A DNA stretch of 39,395 nucleotides from positions 1 through 39,395 of the forward strand of contig JAUSPI010000228.1 in NCBI GenBank assembly GCA_030655775.1, written 5' to 3'. This document shows positions 21,583-31,786 of the stretch, piece after piece. The position numbers were made by a program, and so were the translations under genes. Under the pieces are notes generated by a model. The model saw only the letters and a program-made list of their open reading frames with translations, had not been told where the DNA came from and did no database searches. This DNA comes from Syntrophales bacterium. GTDB taxonomy: Bacteria; Desulfobacterota; Syntrophia; Syntrophales; JADFWA01. Each line of letters starts with the position of its first letter. Positions within the stretch are counted from its first letter, which is position 1.

Positions 21583-22797
21583 CTATACAGCCTTTTTGTT
21601 GTTTTTCCCGTTTAATACCCGTTTTATCTGCTTTATGGCCTGTCTGATTCTGTTTTCATTTTCAACCAGAGCCACTCGCAGGTATCCTTCCCCCTCTTTT
21701 CCGAAACCGATACCGGGGGAAACAGCGACTTCCGCTTCCTCCATGAGCTTGATGGCGAAATTGAGTGAGCCCATTTCTTTAAATTGTTCGGGTATCTGTG
21801 TCCAGACAAACATCGAGGCCTTTGGTTTCTCTACATTCCATCCAATATTATTGAGCCCATCGCAAAGTACATCGCGCCTCCCTTCATAGATAGAGACTTG
21901 AGTATCTATAAAGTCTTCACAATCCCTTAAGGCTATAATGGATGCAATCTGAATGGCCTGGAACAAACCGTAATCATAGTAACCTTTTATTTTTTCCAGG
22001 GCACCTACGATGGTTGGGTTTCCAGCACAGTAGCCAACCCTCCAACCTGCCATATTATATGATTTAGACATAGTTCCAAATTCTACTCCGACATCTTTTG
22101 CCCCTTTCACCTGGAGGAAGCTTGGTGCCCTGTAGCCATCAAAAGTTATCCTGCCATAAGCAAAATCATGGACAACTATCAGATTGTTTTTCTTTGCCAT
22201 TTTGACGATCTCCTCAAAAAATCCGATTTCCACTGTCTTTGTGGTAGGATTATGCGGGTAATTGAGAAAAAGTACCTTGGGTTTTGGCAGGGTTGTTTTG
22301 CATAAATAATCAACTGTTTTCAGAAACTTTTCATCTTCTACAATAGGAACATTTATGACGTTTCCGCCGGCAATAACAACGGAGTAAATATGTACTGGAA
22401 AGGCAGGGACAGGAACGATGGCTGTATCCCCTGGACCCAGCAGTGCCAGGGAAAGATGTGAAACGCCTTCCTTTGAACCTATTGTAGATAACACTTCATT
22501 ATTCGGGTTTAGCGAGACCTGATAATGTTTTTCGTAATATTTCGCGAGCTCTTTGCGGAAGTTGTATATGCCTGCCGCTACTGAATAACGGTGGGTTCGT
22601 GGATCCTGGACGGCTTCACGCAGCTTGTCTATGACCGGCTGGGGAGTTGGATCACTGGGATTCCCCATGGCCAGATCTATGATATCTATCCCAGCTCTCC
22701 TTTTTTTCAGTTTAACCTTATTAATTTTGCCGAAGAGATAAGGGGGCAAGAGATTCATCCTGTTAGATAATTTTATAGAGTTTTCTGTTGTTTCCAT
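21583..22797 (-). CDS. alaC: AlaC-like alanine (glutamate-pyruvate) aminotransferase
   Basis: A 404-residue fold-type I PLP aminotransferase. The cofactor Lys is Lys245 in [28 protein letters not shown] (about 41-52), [12 protein letters not shown] (about 179-190) and [15 protein letters not shown] (about 208-222) are typical of the AlaC/YfdZ subgroup, which makes alanine from pyruvate. The longer frame to 22908 would run through the terminator hairpins of the leader, so the ATG at 22797, with GGGAGATATC before it, is the right start. An alanine-rich leader ORF and attenuator lie upstream, which supports alanine as the product. The exact substrate remains inferred. Confidence 0.88.
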
Positions 22798-22848
22798 AAT
22801 TGATATCTCCCGAAGGGTTTGTAAGTCAGTAATCTGAATAATATAAAA

Positions 22849-22880
22849 AAGCCCTGAATAATTGCTGTCCAAGGCCTTTG
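22849..22880 (-). terminator. Second, weaker terminator-like hairpin before alaC
   Basis: On the minus strand AAAGGCC pairs imperfectly with GGGCTTT and is followed by TTTTTTATATT. It lies between the main attenuator hairpin and the alaC Shine-Dalgarno, as a possible backup stop. Confidence 0.4.
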
Positions 22881-22885
22881 ATAAA

Positions 22886-22931
22886 TACAAAAAGGCCATG
22901 GGCAGCATCTTAATCTGTTTTGCCCATGGCC
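22886..22931 (-). terminator. Attenuator terminator of the alanine leader
   Basis: On the minus strand GGCCATGGGCA (22921-22931) pairs perfectly with TGCCCATGGCC (22894-22904) to give an 11-bp stem, followed by TTTTTGTATTT. It lies between the leader ORF stop and the alaC start. Confidence 0.8.
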
Positions 22932-22990
22932 TGAGAAGTTTTATGCTGTCAATGGTTACAGTTCACCACAAACCACGGGCTTTTTAGCCC
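22894..22990 (-). promoter_or_regulatory. Alanine attenuator: alternative leader RNA pairings
   Basis: Four segments can be seen on the minus strand. Segment 1, GGGCT in leader codons 17-18 (22986-22990), pairs with the AGCCC of segment 2. Segment 2, AGCCCGTGG (22973-22981), can instead pair through GCCCGTGG with CCATGGGC (22922-22929), the 5' arm of the terminator, as 8 bp with one G-U. Segments 3 and 4 form the terminator. A ribosome stalled on the Ala codons 13-18 would cover segment 1 and free segment 2 for antitermination. The logic is that of ribosome-mediated attenuation; function here is inferred. Confidence 0.65.
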
Positions 22991-23039
22991 TGGCTGCCGC
23001 TGCTATTGCTGTTTGACGAATAATGTCTGTGAACTTCAT
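22956..23039 (-). CDS. Alanine-rich leader peptide
   Basis: A 27-residue ORF starting MKFTDIIRQ with a [11 protein letters not shown] core: six Ala between residues 11 and 18, using GCA, GCG, GCC and GCT codons. GGGAAAG precedes the ATG. It lies between the promoter and the terminator of the alaC leader, the position of an attenuation leader peptide. It is unlikely to have a function as a protein. Confidence 0.65.
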
Positions 23040-23068
23040 AATCTTTCCCATTTCAAAAATATAGATAT

Positions 23069-23097
23069 ATGTTATAAAACAATTTAATGATTGTCAA
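23069..23097 (-). promoter_or_regulatory. Promoter of the alanine leader and alaC
   Basis: TTGACA (23092-23097) and TAACAT (23069-23074) on the minus strand, spaced 17 nt, about 30 nt before the leader ATG. Confidence 0.7.
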
Positions 23098-26734: not shown

Positions 26735-27208
26735 TTATAGTGCTAAGATTCCTGATCTGCTCAGATCTTCTATACCAAGTCGTTCAAGTCGTTTCAAGAT
26801 ATTCTTGACTTCGTTTTTATTTCCTGTTGCTTCTAGGACACAATGATTCGCTTCCAGGGTGATTAACCTGCAATTATAGTCTTTTATGATCTCCATTACC
26901 TTGCCTCTGTTCTCATTCGTTAGTTTCACTTTAACCAGTATCATTTCTCTTTGAAGAGACGATTTTTCTTTTAAATGAGAAACCTCAAGGATATCAACCA
27001 GTTTTTTTGTCTGGTTTTTGATTTTTGTGACTGTTGCCGTATCACCTCTTGTTACAATAATAATTTTCGTAATTTCGGGATTCATCGTTATGTTTGCACT
27101 GATGCTCTCTATATTAAAGCTCCGTGCGCTAAATACTCCTGCAATCCTTGCAAGAACATCCGGTTTGTTATTAACCAGAAATGTAATTGTCTGATCCTTC
27201 CTCTCCAT
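26735..27208 (-). CDS. ilvN: Acetolactate synthase small (regulatory) subunit
   Basis: A 157-residue protein: ACT domain at about 6-75 (TITFLVNNKPDVLARIAGVF) and C-terminal regulatory domain with LQREMILVKVKL (about 84-95). It activates IlvB and makes it sensitive to valine. It sits between ilvB (22-nt gap) and ilvC (18-nt gap). A nearly identical copy lies at 3820-4293, and a more distant paralogue at 29355-29840. Confidence 0.96.
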   Translation of the reverse strand: MERKDQTITFLVNNKPDVLARIAGVFSARSFNIESISANITMNPEITKIIIVTRGDTATVTKIKNQTKKLVDILEVSHLKEKSSLQREMILVKVKLTNENRGKVMEIIKDYNCRLITLEANHCVLEATGNKNEVKNILKRLERLGIEDLSRSGILAL

Positions 27209-27230
27209 GGCATCATTTTCCTTTCTTGTA

Positions 27231-28934
27231 TTATGACAATTCTTCTTTTTTCAGTTTCGTTTCGCTCAGGGAGGTGCCTGGTTTTACCATGGGGAAGACA
27301 CCTTCTTCCCGCTCAACATGGAAATCCATTACGACTGTATTCGGAATATTCAAGCCTTTTTTTAGCGTGGGTTCTACTTCTTCCGGTTTCGTGGCTCTCA
27401 AACCGACAGCTCCATAAGCTTCTGCCAGTTTCACAAAGTCCGGAATCTGACTTATATCACTGTGGGAATATCGCTTTTCATAGAACAGTTCCTGCCACTG
27501 GCGTACCATGCCGAGGTACCCGTTATTCAGAATTACAATCTTAACGGGAAGTTTATAGTTTACGGCAGTAGCCAGTTCCTGAATGTTCATCTGTATGCTT
27601 CCGTCCCCGGCGATATCAACGACCGTTTTATCAGGGAATGCAACCTGCGCGCCTATGGCAGCGGGGAAACCATAACCCATGGTACCGAGTCCTCCCGAAG
27701 AGAGAAAGGTATTAGGGTAATCGAAATGGTAATACAGAGCTGACCACATCTGGTTTTGTCCTACTTCGGTTGCTATGATGGCCTCTCCCTTAGTGAGCTT
27801 ATACAGTGTTTCAATGACTTTCTGAGGCTTGATTTTGTCACCTTCAGAGTAGGAGGTTAAGGGTGCATACGCTTTCCATTCTGCTATCTGATCAAGCCAT
27901 TTTTTGTTTTCTTCCTCGTTGACGGCAAAATGGTCTTGGTCTAACGACTGGTTCATCTCCTGTAGTGCGGATTTGGCGTCACTTATAATCGGTATGTCTG
28001 CGAGGACATTTTTATTGATTGAAGCGGCATCTATATCAATATGAATAATCTTTGCATTTGATGCAAATGTGGAAGTTTTCCCCGTAACACGGTCAGAGAA
28101 GCGAGTTCCGATAGTTATCATAAGATCACAGTTACATATTGCCATGTTCGCATAATAGGTGCCGTGCATACCCGGCATACCGAGCCATAGAGGATGAGTT
28201 CCGGGAAAAGCGCCAAGACCCATCAAAGTTGCGGTGACAGGAATTTTGGTTTTTTCAGCGAATTCTTTCAGTTCATTAGTTGCTCTTCCAAGTATAATTC
28301 CACCTCCTACCAGCAGAAGGGGCCTCTTAGCTTTCTTTATAAGTTCCAGGGCCTGTTGAAGCTGTTTAGCGTCAGGAAGATATTTAGGTTCGGTGAAACT
28401 TAATTTTAAAGAATTAGATTCCTTATATTCTGTTTCGGACTGCATGATGTCTTTGGGAAGATCTACCAGCACTGGCCCAGGACGTCCTGACCTGGCGATG
28501 TAAAATGCTTCTTTGATCGTTTTTGCCAGATCTTCAATATTTCTAACCAGGAAATTATGCTTTGTACAGGGTCTTGTAATTCCCGTGATGTCGGCCTCCT
28601 GGAATGCATCGGTACCGATGGTTGGTGACGTAACCTGTCCGGTAAATATAACCATAGGTACGGAGTCCATATAAGCTGTGGCGATACCGGTTACCGTATT
28701 TGTGGCTCCCGGTCCGGAAGTAACGAGACAAACGCCCACTTTACCTGATGATCTGGCATAGCCATCTGCTGCATGCGCCGCACCCTGTTCGTGACGGACC
28801 AGTATATGAGGAAAATTTTCTTTATAGATCTGGTCGTAAATGTCGAGGACAGCGCCACCAGGGAACCCGAAGATTATTTCTACTCCTTCTTCACGCAAGG
28901 TCTTTGTGAAAATTTGAGGTCCTTTTAACTTCAT
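27231..28934 (-). CDS. ilvB: Acetolactate synthase large (catalytic) subunit
   Basis: A 567-residue ThDP enzyme of normal length. The catalytic Glu lies in [14 protein letters not shown] (about 46-59); the ThDP/metal motif is [20 protein letters not shown] with the NN pair ([15 protein letters not shown]) after it, and the Trp in RQWQ is the residue tied to ALS substrate choice. It condenses two pyruvates, or pyruvate with 2-oxobutyrate. AAAGGAGATATTC precedes the ATG. It is the first structural gene of ilvBNCD-HAD and is preceded by an Ile-rich leader and terminator. Confidence 0.97.
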
Positions 28935-29354: not shown

Positions 29355-29840
29355 CTATTTATCCTTCTGCAAAGCGATTACTCCTGTTCTGGCAATTTCT
29401 TCGATACCCAATGGTGCAAAATAATTGAGAACCGTCTCTATTTTTTCTTTATTATCGACGACTTCAAGAATATAGTAATCAGATTTCATCGAGATAATCT
29501 TACACCCAAATATATCAACCGCTCGCGCTATTTCAGCTCTGTGTTCCTGCTGTAGTTTTATTCCGATCAATATCAATTCTCTCTGTACAGACTGTATTTG
29601 ACCCAGCTCGGTGACCTCGACAACATCAACCAGTTTCTCCAACTGCTTTTTCGTTCTTTCGGTGGAATCAGAATTCGATTTACTAACCAGGGTGATTTTT
29701 GAAATTTCAGGATCGGTTGTTGCTGCCACACAGAGGCTCTCTATATTGTAGCCGAGTCTCCCGAATACACCGGCAACACGTGATAGTACACCAGGCTTAT
29801 TATTAACCAGCATTGATATTAGATGTTCTTCACCGTTCAT
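29355..29840 (-). CDS. ilvN: Acetolactate synthase small subunit, second set
   Basis: A 161-residue ACT-domain regulatory subunit (LISMLVNNKPGVLSRVAGVF, about 7-26; VQRELILIGIKL about 84-95). It is clearly diverged from the 26735-27208 protein (for example YNIESLCVAATTDPEIS versus FNIESISANITMNPEIT), so it is an older paralogue and likely pairs with the large subunit just upstream (40-nt gap). It may give this isozyme a different valine response. Confidence 0.93.
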   Translation of the reverse strand: MNGEEHLISMLVNNKPGVLSRVAGVFGRLGYNIESLCVAATTDPEISKITLVSKSNSDSTERTKKQLEKLVDVVEVTELGQIQSVQRELILIGIKLQQEHRAEIARAVDIFGCKIISMKSDYYILEVVDNKEKIETVLNYFAPLGIEEIARTGVIALQKDK

Positions 29841-29880
29841 CTCTTGATTCCCCTTTTTGTTTTTGTATCTAAATGGTCCA

Positions 29881-31557
29881 CTAATCTGACCTTCTATATA
29901 TCATCTCTATGTTCGATAGACCGGGCGGTATAAGCGGAAAAACATATGTGTCAGGATCTACCATTACCTCTAATAAATAAGGTCCATCTGTTTTACGCAT
30001 CTTTTCGATACCGGACTCAGGGTCGTTCACCGAAACCCTCCCGGCGTCGATTCCGAATCCCTTGGCGACCATTACCATGTCAACTTTGTTTCCGAGTTCA
30101 CAGGCATTAAACCGGGCGCCATAGAATAAATCCTGGAGCTGGCGTATCATGCCAAGATTACCATTATTGAAGACAACAATCTTTACAGGAAGGTTATAAT
30201 AGCTTATTGTTGCTAATTCCTGGATGTTCATATAGAAACCACCATCTCCTGAAAATGCTACCACTTCCTGGTTCTGGACTCCTATTTTTGCACCTATTGC
30301 CGCCGGGACACTGAATCCCATGGTACCCATCCCCCCGCAGGTGATCAGGCCGCGGGGCGTTTTAGGTTGCCAGGAACGAACGGTCCATATCTGATTTAAC
30401 CCCACATCGGCGACCGCAGTCGTTTTTTCCGGCATAACGTCCTGAATCATACTGATAAGTTTTCCGGCAGGGCCGCATCCTTCGCGGGACCCTCTTTTTT
30501 CGGACAGCTCTCTTTCTTTATTAATTCTTTGAAACCACTCAGGCCTTTCCTTTTTTTCTACCAGTGGAATCATTTCGGTTATTGCTTCACGAATATCGCT
30601 GATCAACTGAAGATCCACCTTTATATTTTTGCCGATTGAAGTCGGATCAATGTCAATCTGGGCAATGGTAGCAAGGGGAGCAAATTCCTCTATGTTCGAC
30701 GTGCTCCGATCACTGAAGCGGGTTCCTACTGCCAGGATAAAATCCGAGTGGTGGATGGTGCTGTTAGCCAACTCGTTACCATGTGTTCCTATGAAGCCAA
30801 GGTTGAAACCGTTTGAGGAATCGATGGATCCAATACCCATCATGGTTGTTACGAAGGGGATTCGACCTTTTTTAATCAGCTCGCTCAGTTGGGTACAGGC
30901 TTTGCCCAGTTTCACACCGCCGCCGATTATGATGATCGGCCTTTCTGCCCTGTTTAAATACGTGGCAATTTGCTTTATCTGTTCAAGCTTTTCTTTGGGA
31001 CTGGTATGTTGCTTCTTTGATCTTTGTCCGTTATTGCTTTTGCTGTCCAGTTTGCAACTTGCAGTCAGGACATCTCTCGGCATGTCTACGAGAACCGGTC
31101 CCGGCCTGCCGCTTCTTGCAAGTTCAAAAGCCTCTTTTAAAGTGGACTCCACTTCTTCTACATCATTTAACAAGAAGCTGTGTTTTGTTATGGGCATGGT
31201 AATGCCGATAATATCCGTTTCCTGAAAGGCATCGCTTCCCAGAAGATTTGTGGTTACCTGGCCGGTGAGGGCGATCAACGGTGTCGAATCCATATAGGCG
31301 GTGGCTATACCGGTAACCATGTTGGTGGCACCTGGACCCGAGGTGGAAAGACAAACCCCAACCTTGCCCGTAGCTCTGGCATAGCCGTCTGCAGCATGAG
31401 CAGCAGCCTGCTCGTGCCTCATAAGGTAATGTTTGATAGGAGACTCCATTAAACGATCATGAATGGGTAGGGTATTTGCTCCTGGATATCCAAAGATTAC
31501 CTCGGTTCCCTCTTCTTTTAGGGTTTGTAAGATTATTTCAGCTCCTGTTTTTTCCAT
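29881..31557 (-). CDS. ilvB: Acetolactate synthase large subunit, second set
   Basis: A 558-residue ThDP enzyme. The catalytic Glu is in [14 protein letters not shown], the ThDP motif is [20 protein letters not shown], and NNGNLGMIRQLQDLFY follows. Here the position that is Trp in RQWQ of the other IlvB is Leu (RQLQ), which may change preference for 2-oxobutyrate. Start: the ATG at 31557 follows AGGCAGGTATAAA; a longer frame to 31617 runs through a terminator hairpin and is rejected. The gene is preceded by a Val-rich leader and two tandem terminators. Confidence 0.95.
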   Translation of the reverse strand: MEKTGAEIILQTLKEEGTEVIFGYPGANTLPIHDRLMESPIKHYLMRHEQAAAHAADGYARATGKVGVCLSTSGPGATNMVTGIATAYMDSTPLIALTGQVTTNLLGSDAFQETDIIGITMPITKHSFLLNDVEEVESTLKEAFELARSGRPGPVLVDMPRDVLTASCKLDSKSNNGQRSKKQHTSPKEKLEQIKQIATYLNRAERPIIIIGGGVKLGKACTQLSELIKKGRIPFVTTMMGIGSIDSSNGFNLGFIGTHGNELANSTIHHSDFILAVGTRFSDRSTSNIEEFAPLATIAQIDIDPTSIGKNIKVDLQLISDIREAITEMIPLVEKKERPEWFQRINKERELSEKRGSREGCGPAGKLISMIQDVMPEKTTAVADVGLNQIWTVRSWQPKTPRGLITCGGMGTMGFSVPAAIGAKIGVQNQEVVAFSGDGGFYMNIQELATISYYNLPVKIVVFNNGNLGMIRQLQDLFYGARFNACELGNKVDMVMVAKGFGIDAGRVSVNDPESGIEKMRKTDGPYLLEVMVDPDTYVFPLIPPGLSNIEMIYRRSD

Positions 31558-31578
31558 TTTATACCTGCCTATCTTAAT

Positions 31579-31611
31579 AAAAAAGCCGCACTTCTCAAGA
31601 ATTGCGGCTTT
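31579..31611 (-). terminator. Second tandem terminator before the second ilvB
   Basis: On the minus strand AAAGCCGCA pairs with TGCGGCTTT across a 12-nt loop, followed by TTTTTTATT. It ends about 20 nt before the ilvB start. Confidence 0.8.
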
Positions 31612-31617
31612 CTGCAT

Positions 31618-31655
31618 AAAAAGCCGCGGACCTTTGTGGGGTCCGCGGCTTTTTT
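31618..31655 (-). terminator. Main attenuator terminator before the second ilvB
   Basis: On the minus strand AAAAAGCCGCGGACC pairs perfectly with GGTCCGCGGCTTTTT (15 bp, 7-nt loop) with the T-run forming the end of the stem. Confidence 0.88.
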
Positions 31656-31692
31656 CCTTTTAATACTTTACAAGAGTCAAGCAGCGGTCCCC
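31638..31692 (-). promoter_or_regulatory. Valine attenuator: alternative leader RNA pairings
   Basis: Minus-strand GGGGACCGCTGCTT (31679-31692), the last codons of the leader ORF, can pair with AAGCCGCGGACCCC (31638-31651), which contains the 5' arm of the main terminator: 12 of 14 positions pair, with two mismatches. That antiterminator excludes the terminator. Ribosome stalling on the Val codons would favour it. Confidence 0.65.
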
Positions 31693-31754
31693 GTAACTAC
31701 TACTACGAGTACACTTACTACAGTAACTGTTACGGCCAAAAGCTGATGGACCAT
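31677..31754 (-). CDS. Valine-rich leader peptide of the second ilvBN
   Basis: A 25-residue ORF with ten Val and three Leu, core AVTVTVVSVLVVVVTG, preceded by AAGGAGATATACTA. It closely resembles in kind the IvbL leader of E. coli ilvBN. Expected to sense charged tRNA-Val and perhaps tRNA-Leu. Confidence 0.85.
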   Translation of the reverse strand: MVHQLLAVTVTVVSVLVVVVTGTAA

Positions 31755-31786
31755 TAGTATATCTCCTTTTCCTTTAAAACGATTTT

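Follow-up and report, generated by a model that had tools for sequence, protein, structure and literature searches.

Ribosome-mediated transcription attenuation is a classical way of controlling amino acid operons, of which the textbook examples are his, trp, leu, ilv, thr and phe. The leader of the Escherichia coli his operon is described by the A-F scheme, where helices 1:2, 3:4 and 5:6 are set against the alternative helices 2:3 and 4:5. The T-box leaders of alaS and other genes in Firmicutes also read tRNA charging and control termination, and they bind the tRNA directly, unlike the leader-peptide attenuation proposed below for alaC. As a rule, the attenuators of amino acid operons contain codons for the product (PMC1183508). 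The trp, leu, ilv, thr and phe attenuators known from proteobacteria and Actinobacteria (PMC1262725, PMC1183508) share a leader ORF with regulatory codons, an antiterminator, a terminator and a biosynthetic target, and alanine is nowhere mentioned in PMC1262725. The published candidate attenuators that were found concern other amino acids, none of them alanine, and no description of an alanine attenuator, or of attenuation in Desulfobacterota, was found in the open literature, subscription journals being mostly outside the search. An alanine attenuator is therefore likely, rather than shown, to be new, and it would add to ribosome-mediated sensing an amino acid whose control is usually ascribed to other means.

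The window, which is the whole analysed stretch of 39,395 nt from a Syntrophales bacterium, harbors on its minus strand a unit consisting of a promoter, a leader ORF, two successive terminators (T1 and T2) and an alaC-like class I/II aminotransferase gene (21583-22797). The alanine attenuation by this leader is strongly supported at the level of sequence, and the unit very probably represents a ribosome-mediated transcription attenuator, which would sense the alanyl-tRNA supply and control an alanine-forming aminotransferase. The leader most likely serves to turn alaC on once alanine is exhausted in the cell. It is similar to the his leader of E. coli and Salmonella (RF00514) in its run of codons for the regulated amino acid and in its six strands with two exclusive states, while it reads alanine instead of histidine and bears U-tracts on both 3:4 and 5:6 in most cases, in contrast with the his leader, where the last hairpin alone is the terminator. 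Compared with the trp, leu, ilv, thr and phe attenuators, the differences are alanine and alaC on the one hand and the two coupled terminators on the other, and it is in the amino acid and in this coupling that the alaC leader departs from known ribosome-mediated attenuation. The Rfam model His_leader gave the alaC leader 15.9 bits, which is under its gathering cut-off of 49. Neither a T-box nor any other Rfam family was detected in the window at the gathering cut-off, a permissive scan giving sub-threshold matches only, and Rfam annotates neither the alaC leader nor the ilvB leader of the window. The trpB motif (RF04312), reported from Firmicutes and Fusobacteria (PMC11109978), was rejected as a candidate (29.7 bits against a cut-off of 59), its resemblance being confined to two hairpins in a row.

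The promoter is composed of TTGACA (23097-23092) and TAACAT (23074-23069) with a 17-nt spacer, spanning 23069-23097, so that both boxes named in the initial annotation could be located. Three promoter-like pairs were found in the window versus 1.2 expected, and the promoter alone is thus weak evidence, but such pairs precede 27 of the 60 related leader ORFs, where 1.5 would be expected. A Shine-Dalgarno-like GGGAAAG (23043-23049) belongs to the leader ORF, and AAGGAAA is found at the equivalent position in one relative (L010). The leader ORF (22956-23039; ATG at 23039, TAA at 22958-22956) has the previously described 27 codons with six alanines in residues 11-18, and Ala-run leaders of this kind are conserved before alaC orthologues. 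The putative regulatory codons, GCA (I) GCA GCG GCA GCC (R) GCT, occupy 22986-23009 and are assigned from the sequence and from ribosome-placement folding. Strand 1 (GGGCU, 22986-22990; sequence and folding) is the partner of strand 2 (GCCCGUGGUU, 22971-22980), which lies inside the leader ORF and, as indicated by pairing, covariation and folding, is also the antiterminator partner of strand 3. The latter (AGGCCAUGGGCA, 22921-22932) is the 5' arm of T1, and strand 4 (UGCCCAUGGCCU, 22893-22904) is its 3' arm; both are supported by conservation and covariation, to which the partner-swap test is added for strand 4, whose alternative partner is strand 5. The T1 stem is formed by 11-12 bp between 22932-22921 and 22904-22893 and is accompanied by a U-tract of five T (22889-22893). 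The folding, conservation and covariation define strand 5 (22865-22879) as the 5' arm of T2, and strand 6 (22845-22861) as its 3' arm (22861-22847) together with the U-tract.

The two pairings drawn earlier, GGGCT with AGCCC and GCCCGTGG with CCATGGGC, both exist, and alaC begins downstream of the terminator, as had been claimed, at ATG 22797. The terminator itself was correctly recognized as T1 with its T-run, while the description of a single terminator does not hold: T2 (22879-22845), which straddles the low end of the interval then under study (22849-23097), had been missed, as had the 4:5 helix that joins T1 and T2 and the use of the same layout for other amino acids. An ORF start assigned mechanically at 22908 was rejected as that of the gene; this ORF runs on in frame through T1 and T2. 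As a whole, the leader folds more stably than all 200 shuffled sequences (z -3.5).

The alignment of orthologous leaders, which the initial annotation had put forward as a check, revealed conserved Ala codons and covarying stems. Ala-run leaders, with runs of three to seven Ala codons, precede the alaC orthologues of at least 65 loci in about 16 families of Desulfobacterota, and T1 and T2 are present in nearly all of them; the bacteria concerned include many sulfate reducers and syntrophs. This count comprises 63 rule-flagged loci, minus two false calls (L151 and L102), plus five leaders retrieved by the covariance model (L135, L153, L177, L189 and L201, the sequence of the last ending before the leader ORF). 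A search for alaC in the genomes of named species yielded 80 loci, with Ala-run leaders in the upstream regions of the Desulfobacterota. Runs with five alanines out of six residues occurred in short ORFs in 12 of 78 upstream regions, while the shuffled sequences gave none, and the corresponding runs of any other residue were found in at most two of the same 78. All four Ala codons are in use across the leaders, as exemplified by MFSVITMQAAAAARAKRPMACGGSL (L011, Syntrophales), MMIPVVLLAAAAAFRSAWVPVGV (L022, Syntrophobacteraceae), MNAAAAAARKTAWATVGDVTKP (L027, Desulforhabdus), MKYTIGAAAAARSTARAEGGD (L040, Desulfatitalea), MQHQVAAAAAMNPVHWRPVAF (L125) and MNLHHAAAAATDSVH (L064, Desulfosarcina cetonica). 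The Ala run is the sole conserved part of the peptide, the N-terminal residues being free to vary and the C-terminal residues tracking the RNA pairing. A chance GC-rich, coding-like run near ordinary terminators, or else a small functional protein, would be favored by the eight matches on the reverse strand, but this control is uninformative, GCN repeats being readable as Ala from either strand; given the conservation in about 16 families, the compensatory changes in four helices and the lack of Ala runs in shuffles, the probability of such an explanation is close to nil.

Conservation of the Ala codons, of both terminators and of helices 2:3 and 4:5 is established by comparing the leaders. 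Nearly all leaders possess a T1 of the type CGCCATGGGCTG... and a T2 of the type AGCCTGGACCG..., and strand 2, which follows the Ala run directly within the leader ORF, has its complement in the 5' arm of T1, most often with a single-base bulge, as seen for CAGCCTGGGCG with CGCCATGGGCTG, CAGTTCATTGGCG with CGCCATGGACTGG, and GTCAACTCATTG with CGCCATGGGTTGAC. A similar complementarity links the 3' arm of T1 with the 5' arm of T2, as in CGGTCCATGGC with GCCTGGACCG, and gives 4:5. In an alignment of 47 leaders, pairing reached 92.8% in the terminator helices 3:4 and 5:6, where 14 pairs had both sides changed; this pairing is partly by construction because T1 and T2 served to choose the sequences. 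The alternatives 2:3 and 4:5, which did not serve for this choice, were 86.3% paired with 10 pairs changed on both sides; their covariation score exceeded all 500 shuffles, and their pairing collapsed when the partners were slid by one base. For 4:5, 19 compensated cells were counted at one pair and 15 at another, while the innermost pair is open in the majority of sequences. Pairing is poor at a few loci, which for 4:5 are L097, L092 and L202. Among 32 representatives, the strands matched their own partners better than swapped ones for both 2:3 (z -5.7) and 4:5 (z -5.9), with 0 of 5000 permutations in each case, z values that are inflated because the representatives are not phylogenetically independent. 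The control pairing 2:5 in the same representatives gave z -0.7, and relatedness alone therefore does not create the effect. The antiterminator is exclusive with the terminator and is conserved by covariation, and the earlier attenuator reading gains support, on these sequence comparisons, from orthologues in which Ala run and terminator are retained and the terminator and antiterminator stems covary.

Several leaders deviate from the common pattern. In L135, an in-frame TGA precedes the Ala run (MKIH*RQKRAAAAKALRVR), representing a broken leader or a sequence error, and T1 is kept. The 5' arm of T1 is degenerate (CGCCATTTGGACC and similar) in L136, L138, L130 and L099, in which T2 is perfect. 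In one clade (L161, L176, L186, L190, L193, L194 and L208), the T1 hairpin is kept with no clear U-tract, so that only T2 resembles a terminator there, and these leaders are therefore nearer to the his arrangement. In addition, many leaders allow an extra small hairpin around their stop codon, in the interval from strand 2 to T1, such as ACCGATCCCT/GGGGATCGGT in L205 and AACAGCAG../GTGCTGT in L206.

With regard to the mechanism, we infer that the leader is translated, that the ribosome stalls on uncharged tRNA-Ala and that transcription terminates, as well as the product of the enzyme. When alanine is plentiful, the ribosome would reach the leader stop codon, and strand 2 would be blocked by 1:2 or by the ribosome itself; T1 (3:4) would then form and terminate transcription, and any RNA polymerase that escapes would meet T2 (5:6). 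When charged tRNA-Ala is scarce, the ribosome would stall on the Ala run and cover strand 1, whereupon strand 2 would pair with strand 3, and strand 4, being freed, would capture strand 5. The combination of 2:3 and 4:5 would thereby disable both terminators at once and permit the transcription of alaC.

This scheme was compared with foldings in which a ribosome was simulated on a set of codons of the window leader, pairing being forbidden under its approximate footprint, an approach that describes equilibrium and not kinetics. With the A-site on Ala14, Ala15 or Ala16, the full 2:3 helix was predicted in a transcript ending before strand 4, and 2:3 together with 4:5 was predominant or co-dominant in the full-length leader; with the stop codon occupied, or the ribosome absent, 1:2 and both terminators were predicted to form. 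Among the 32 representative leaders, Ala accounted for 47% of the codons that permit 2:3 when occupied, versus 16% of the others, and the stretch of permitting codons stops at, or close to, the 3' end of the Ala run, so that in silico a stall on the regulatory codons frees strand 2 and one further downstream does not. Some stalls on non-Ala codons upstream of the Ala run also allow 2:3 in part, which would suit a sensing through general slowing of the ribosome or nascent-chain arrest, for example under antibiotic or stress, in place of tRNA-Ala; as the Ala run is the only conserved part of the peptide and the controlled gene encodes an aminotransferase, we regard this as quite improbable and retain the sensing of tRNA-Ala.

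The energies computed for the window indicate that 3:4 (-26.0) is stronger than 2:3 (-21.3), and thus antitermination before the synthesis of T2 rests on the order of folding. When the transcript stops after T1 alone, the equilibrium is in favor of T1; the ON state therefore needs 2:3 to be formed before strand 4 is made, after which 4:5 holds it. The window transcript favors or matches the ON state at equilibrium only once strand 5 exists. This dependence bears on a variant in which the leader does attenuate while T2 is an independent fail-safe terminator and 4:5 is unused. Each of 3:4 and 5:6 is a good terminator and 4:5 is weak in some loci, as this variant would have it, whereas the covariation of 4:5, the superiority of its own partners over swapped ones and the contribution of strand 5 to the ON state speak for the coupling of T1 with T2, which leaves a fail-safe T2 rather unlikely.

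The clade formed by the window's enzyme and its Desulfobacterota relatives comprised 113 distinct proteins after the wider searches, and the gene tree indicated that the leader is confined to this clade. Its gain and loss on the tree required 11 changes versus 47 for shuffled labels, the number of losses being slightly overestimated because L177, L189 and L201 were scored as leaderless though the leader is present. No leader was found in the examined more distant homologues (L100-L119). The initial annotation had regarded orthologous leaders without the Ala run or the terminator as evidence against its reading; such absence is not the general rule, while two large subclades of the same enzyme, with 23 and 17 rows, do lack the leader, which is therefore dispensable.

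The target enzyme is best matched among the NCBIfam profiles by the alanine transaminase PRK08175 with 536.6 bits, below the cut-off of 647, followed by LL-diaminopimelate aminotransferases, whose cut-off is also missed. The nearest solved structure, 2x5d, is named a 'probable aminotransferase', and some genomes contain a second, less similar copy of the enzyme. The two missed cut-offs would accommodate an enzyme that does not form alanine, such as an LL-diaminopimelate or aspartate aminotransferase, with the Ala run sensing alanine for another reason. This seems doubtful, since the best profile is that of alanine transaminase and attenuators normally carry the codons of the product (PMC1183508). 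Of the clues to an alanine-forming enzyme, the Ala codons are the best, and they would make alanine synthesis the task of an aminotransferase that is widespread in anaerobes and that the profiles cannot name.

Further leaders with tandem terminators emerged from the search with the alaC-trained RNA model, which was the sole means used for other leaders of this genome and which matches the Trp, aromatic and Val leaders more weakly than the alaC leaders. On account of these matches, the alaC leader seems to be the version for alanine of a layout widely used in Desulfobacterota, in which ilvB, trpB-like and aromatic leaders combine the same leader and two terminators with other amino acids. On balance, we lean toward counting it as the first attenuator for alanine and also as the model case of a class spread over the phylum, where a single stalled ribosome would disable two coupled terminators (2:3, then 4:5), giving a tighter OFF state than single-terminator attenuators and serving Ala, Val, Trp and the aromatic amino acids. 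The coupled double terminator would constitute a design for a low-leakage switch.

The window itself contains a second such leader (31576-31773, minus strand), which is Val-rich (MVHQLLAVTVTVVSVLVVVVTGTAA), is followed by two terminators and lies upstream of ilvB (29881-31557). It matches the alaC-trained model with 32.8 bits and folds with z -5.1, and its strands 4 and 5 are complementary (GCGGCUUU with AAAGCCGC). Two consecutive pairs of acetolactate synthase large and small subunits are encoded at 26735-28934 and 29355-31557 on the minus strand, and the Val-rich leader stands directly before the upstream one. Elsewhere, tandem terminators are located before trpB-like genes in six loci (L222, L224, L226-L228 and L237), several of which have short ORFs with ..WAWWW... 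Tandem terminators also precede aromatic-pathway genes in L225, L229-L236 and L239-L241, where the leaders are rich in Tyr, Phe and Trp, for example MNQRCKFEFIGGYYFGWFYYAGVYPPPGS; the genes downstream of these Trp and aromatic leaders were named by eye.
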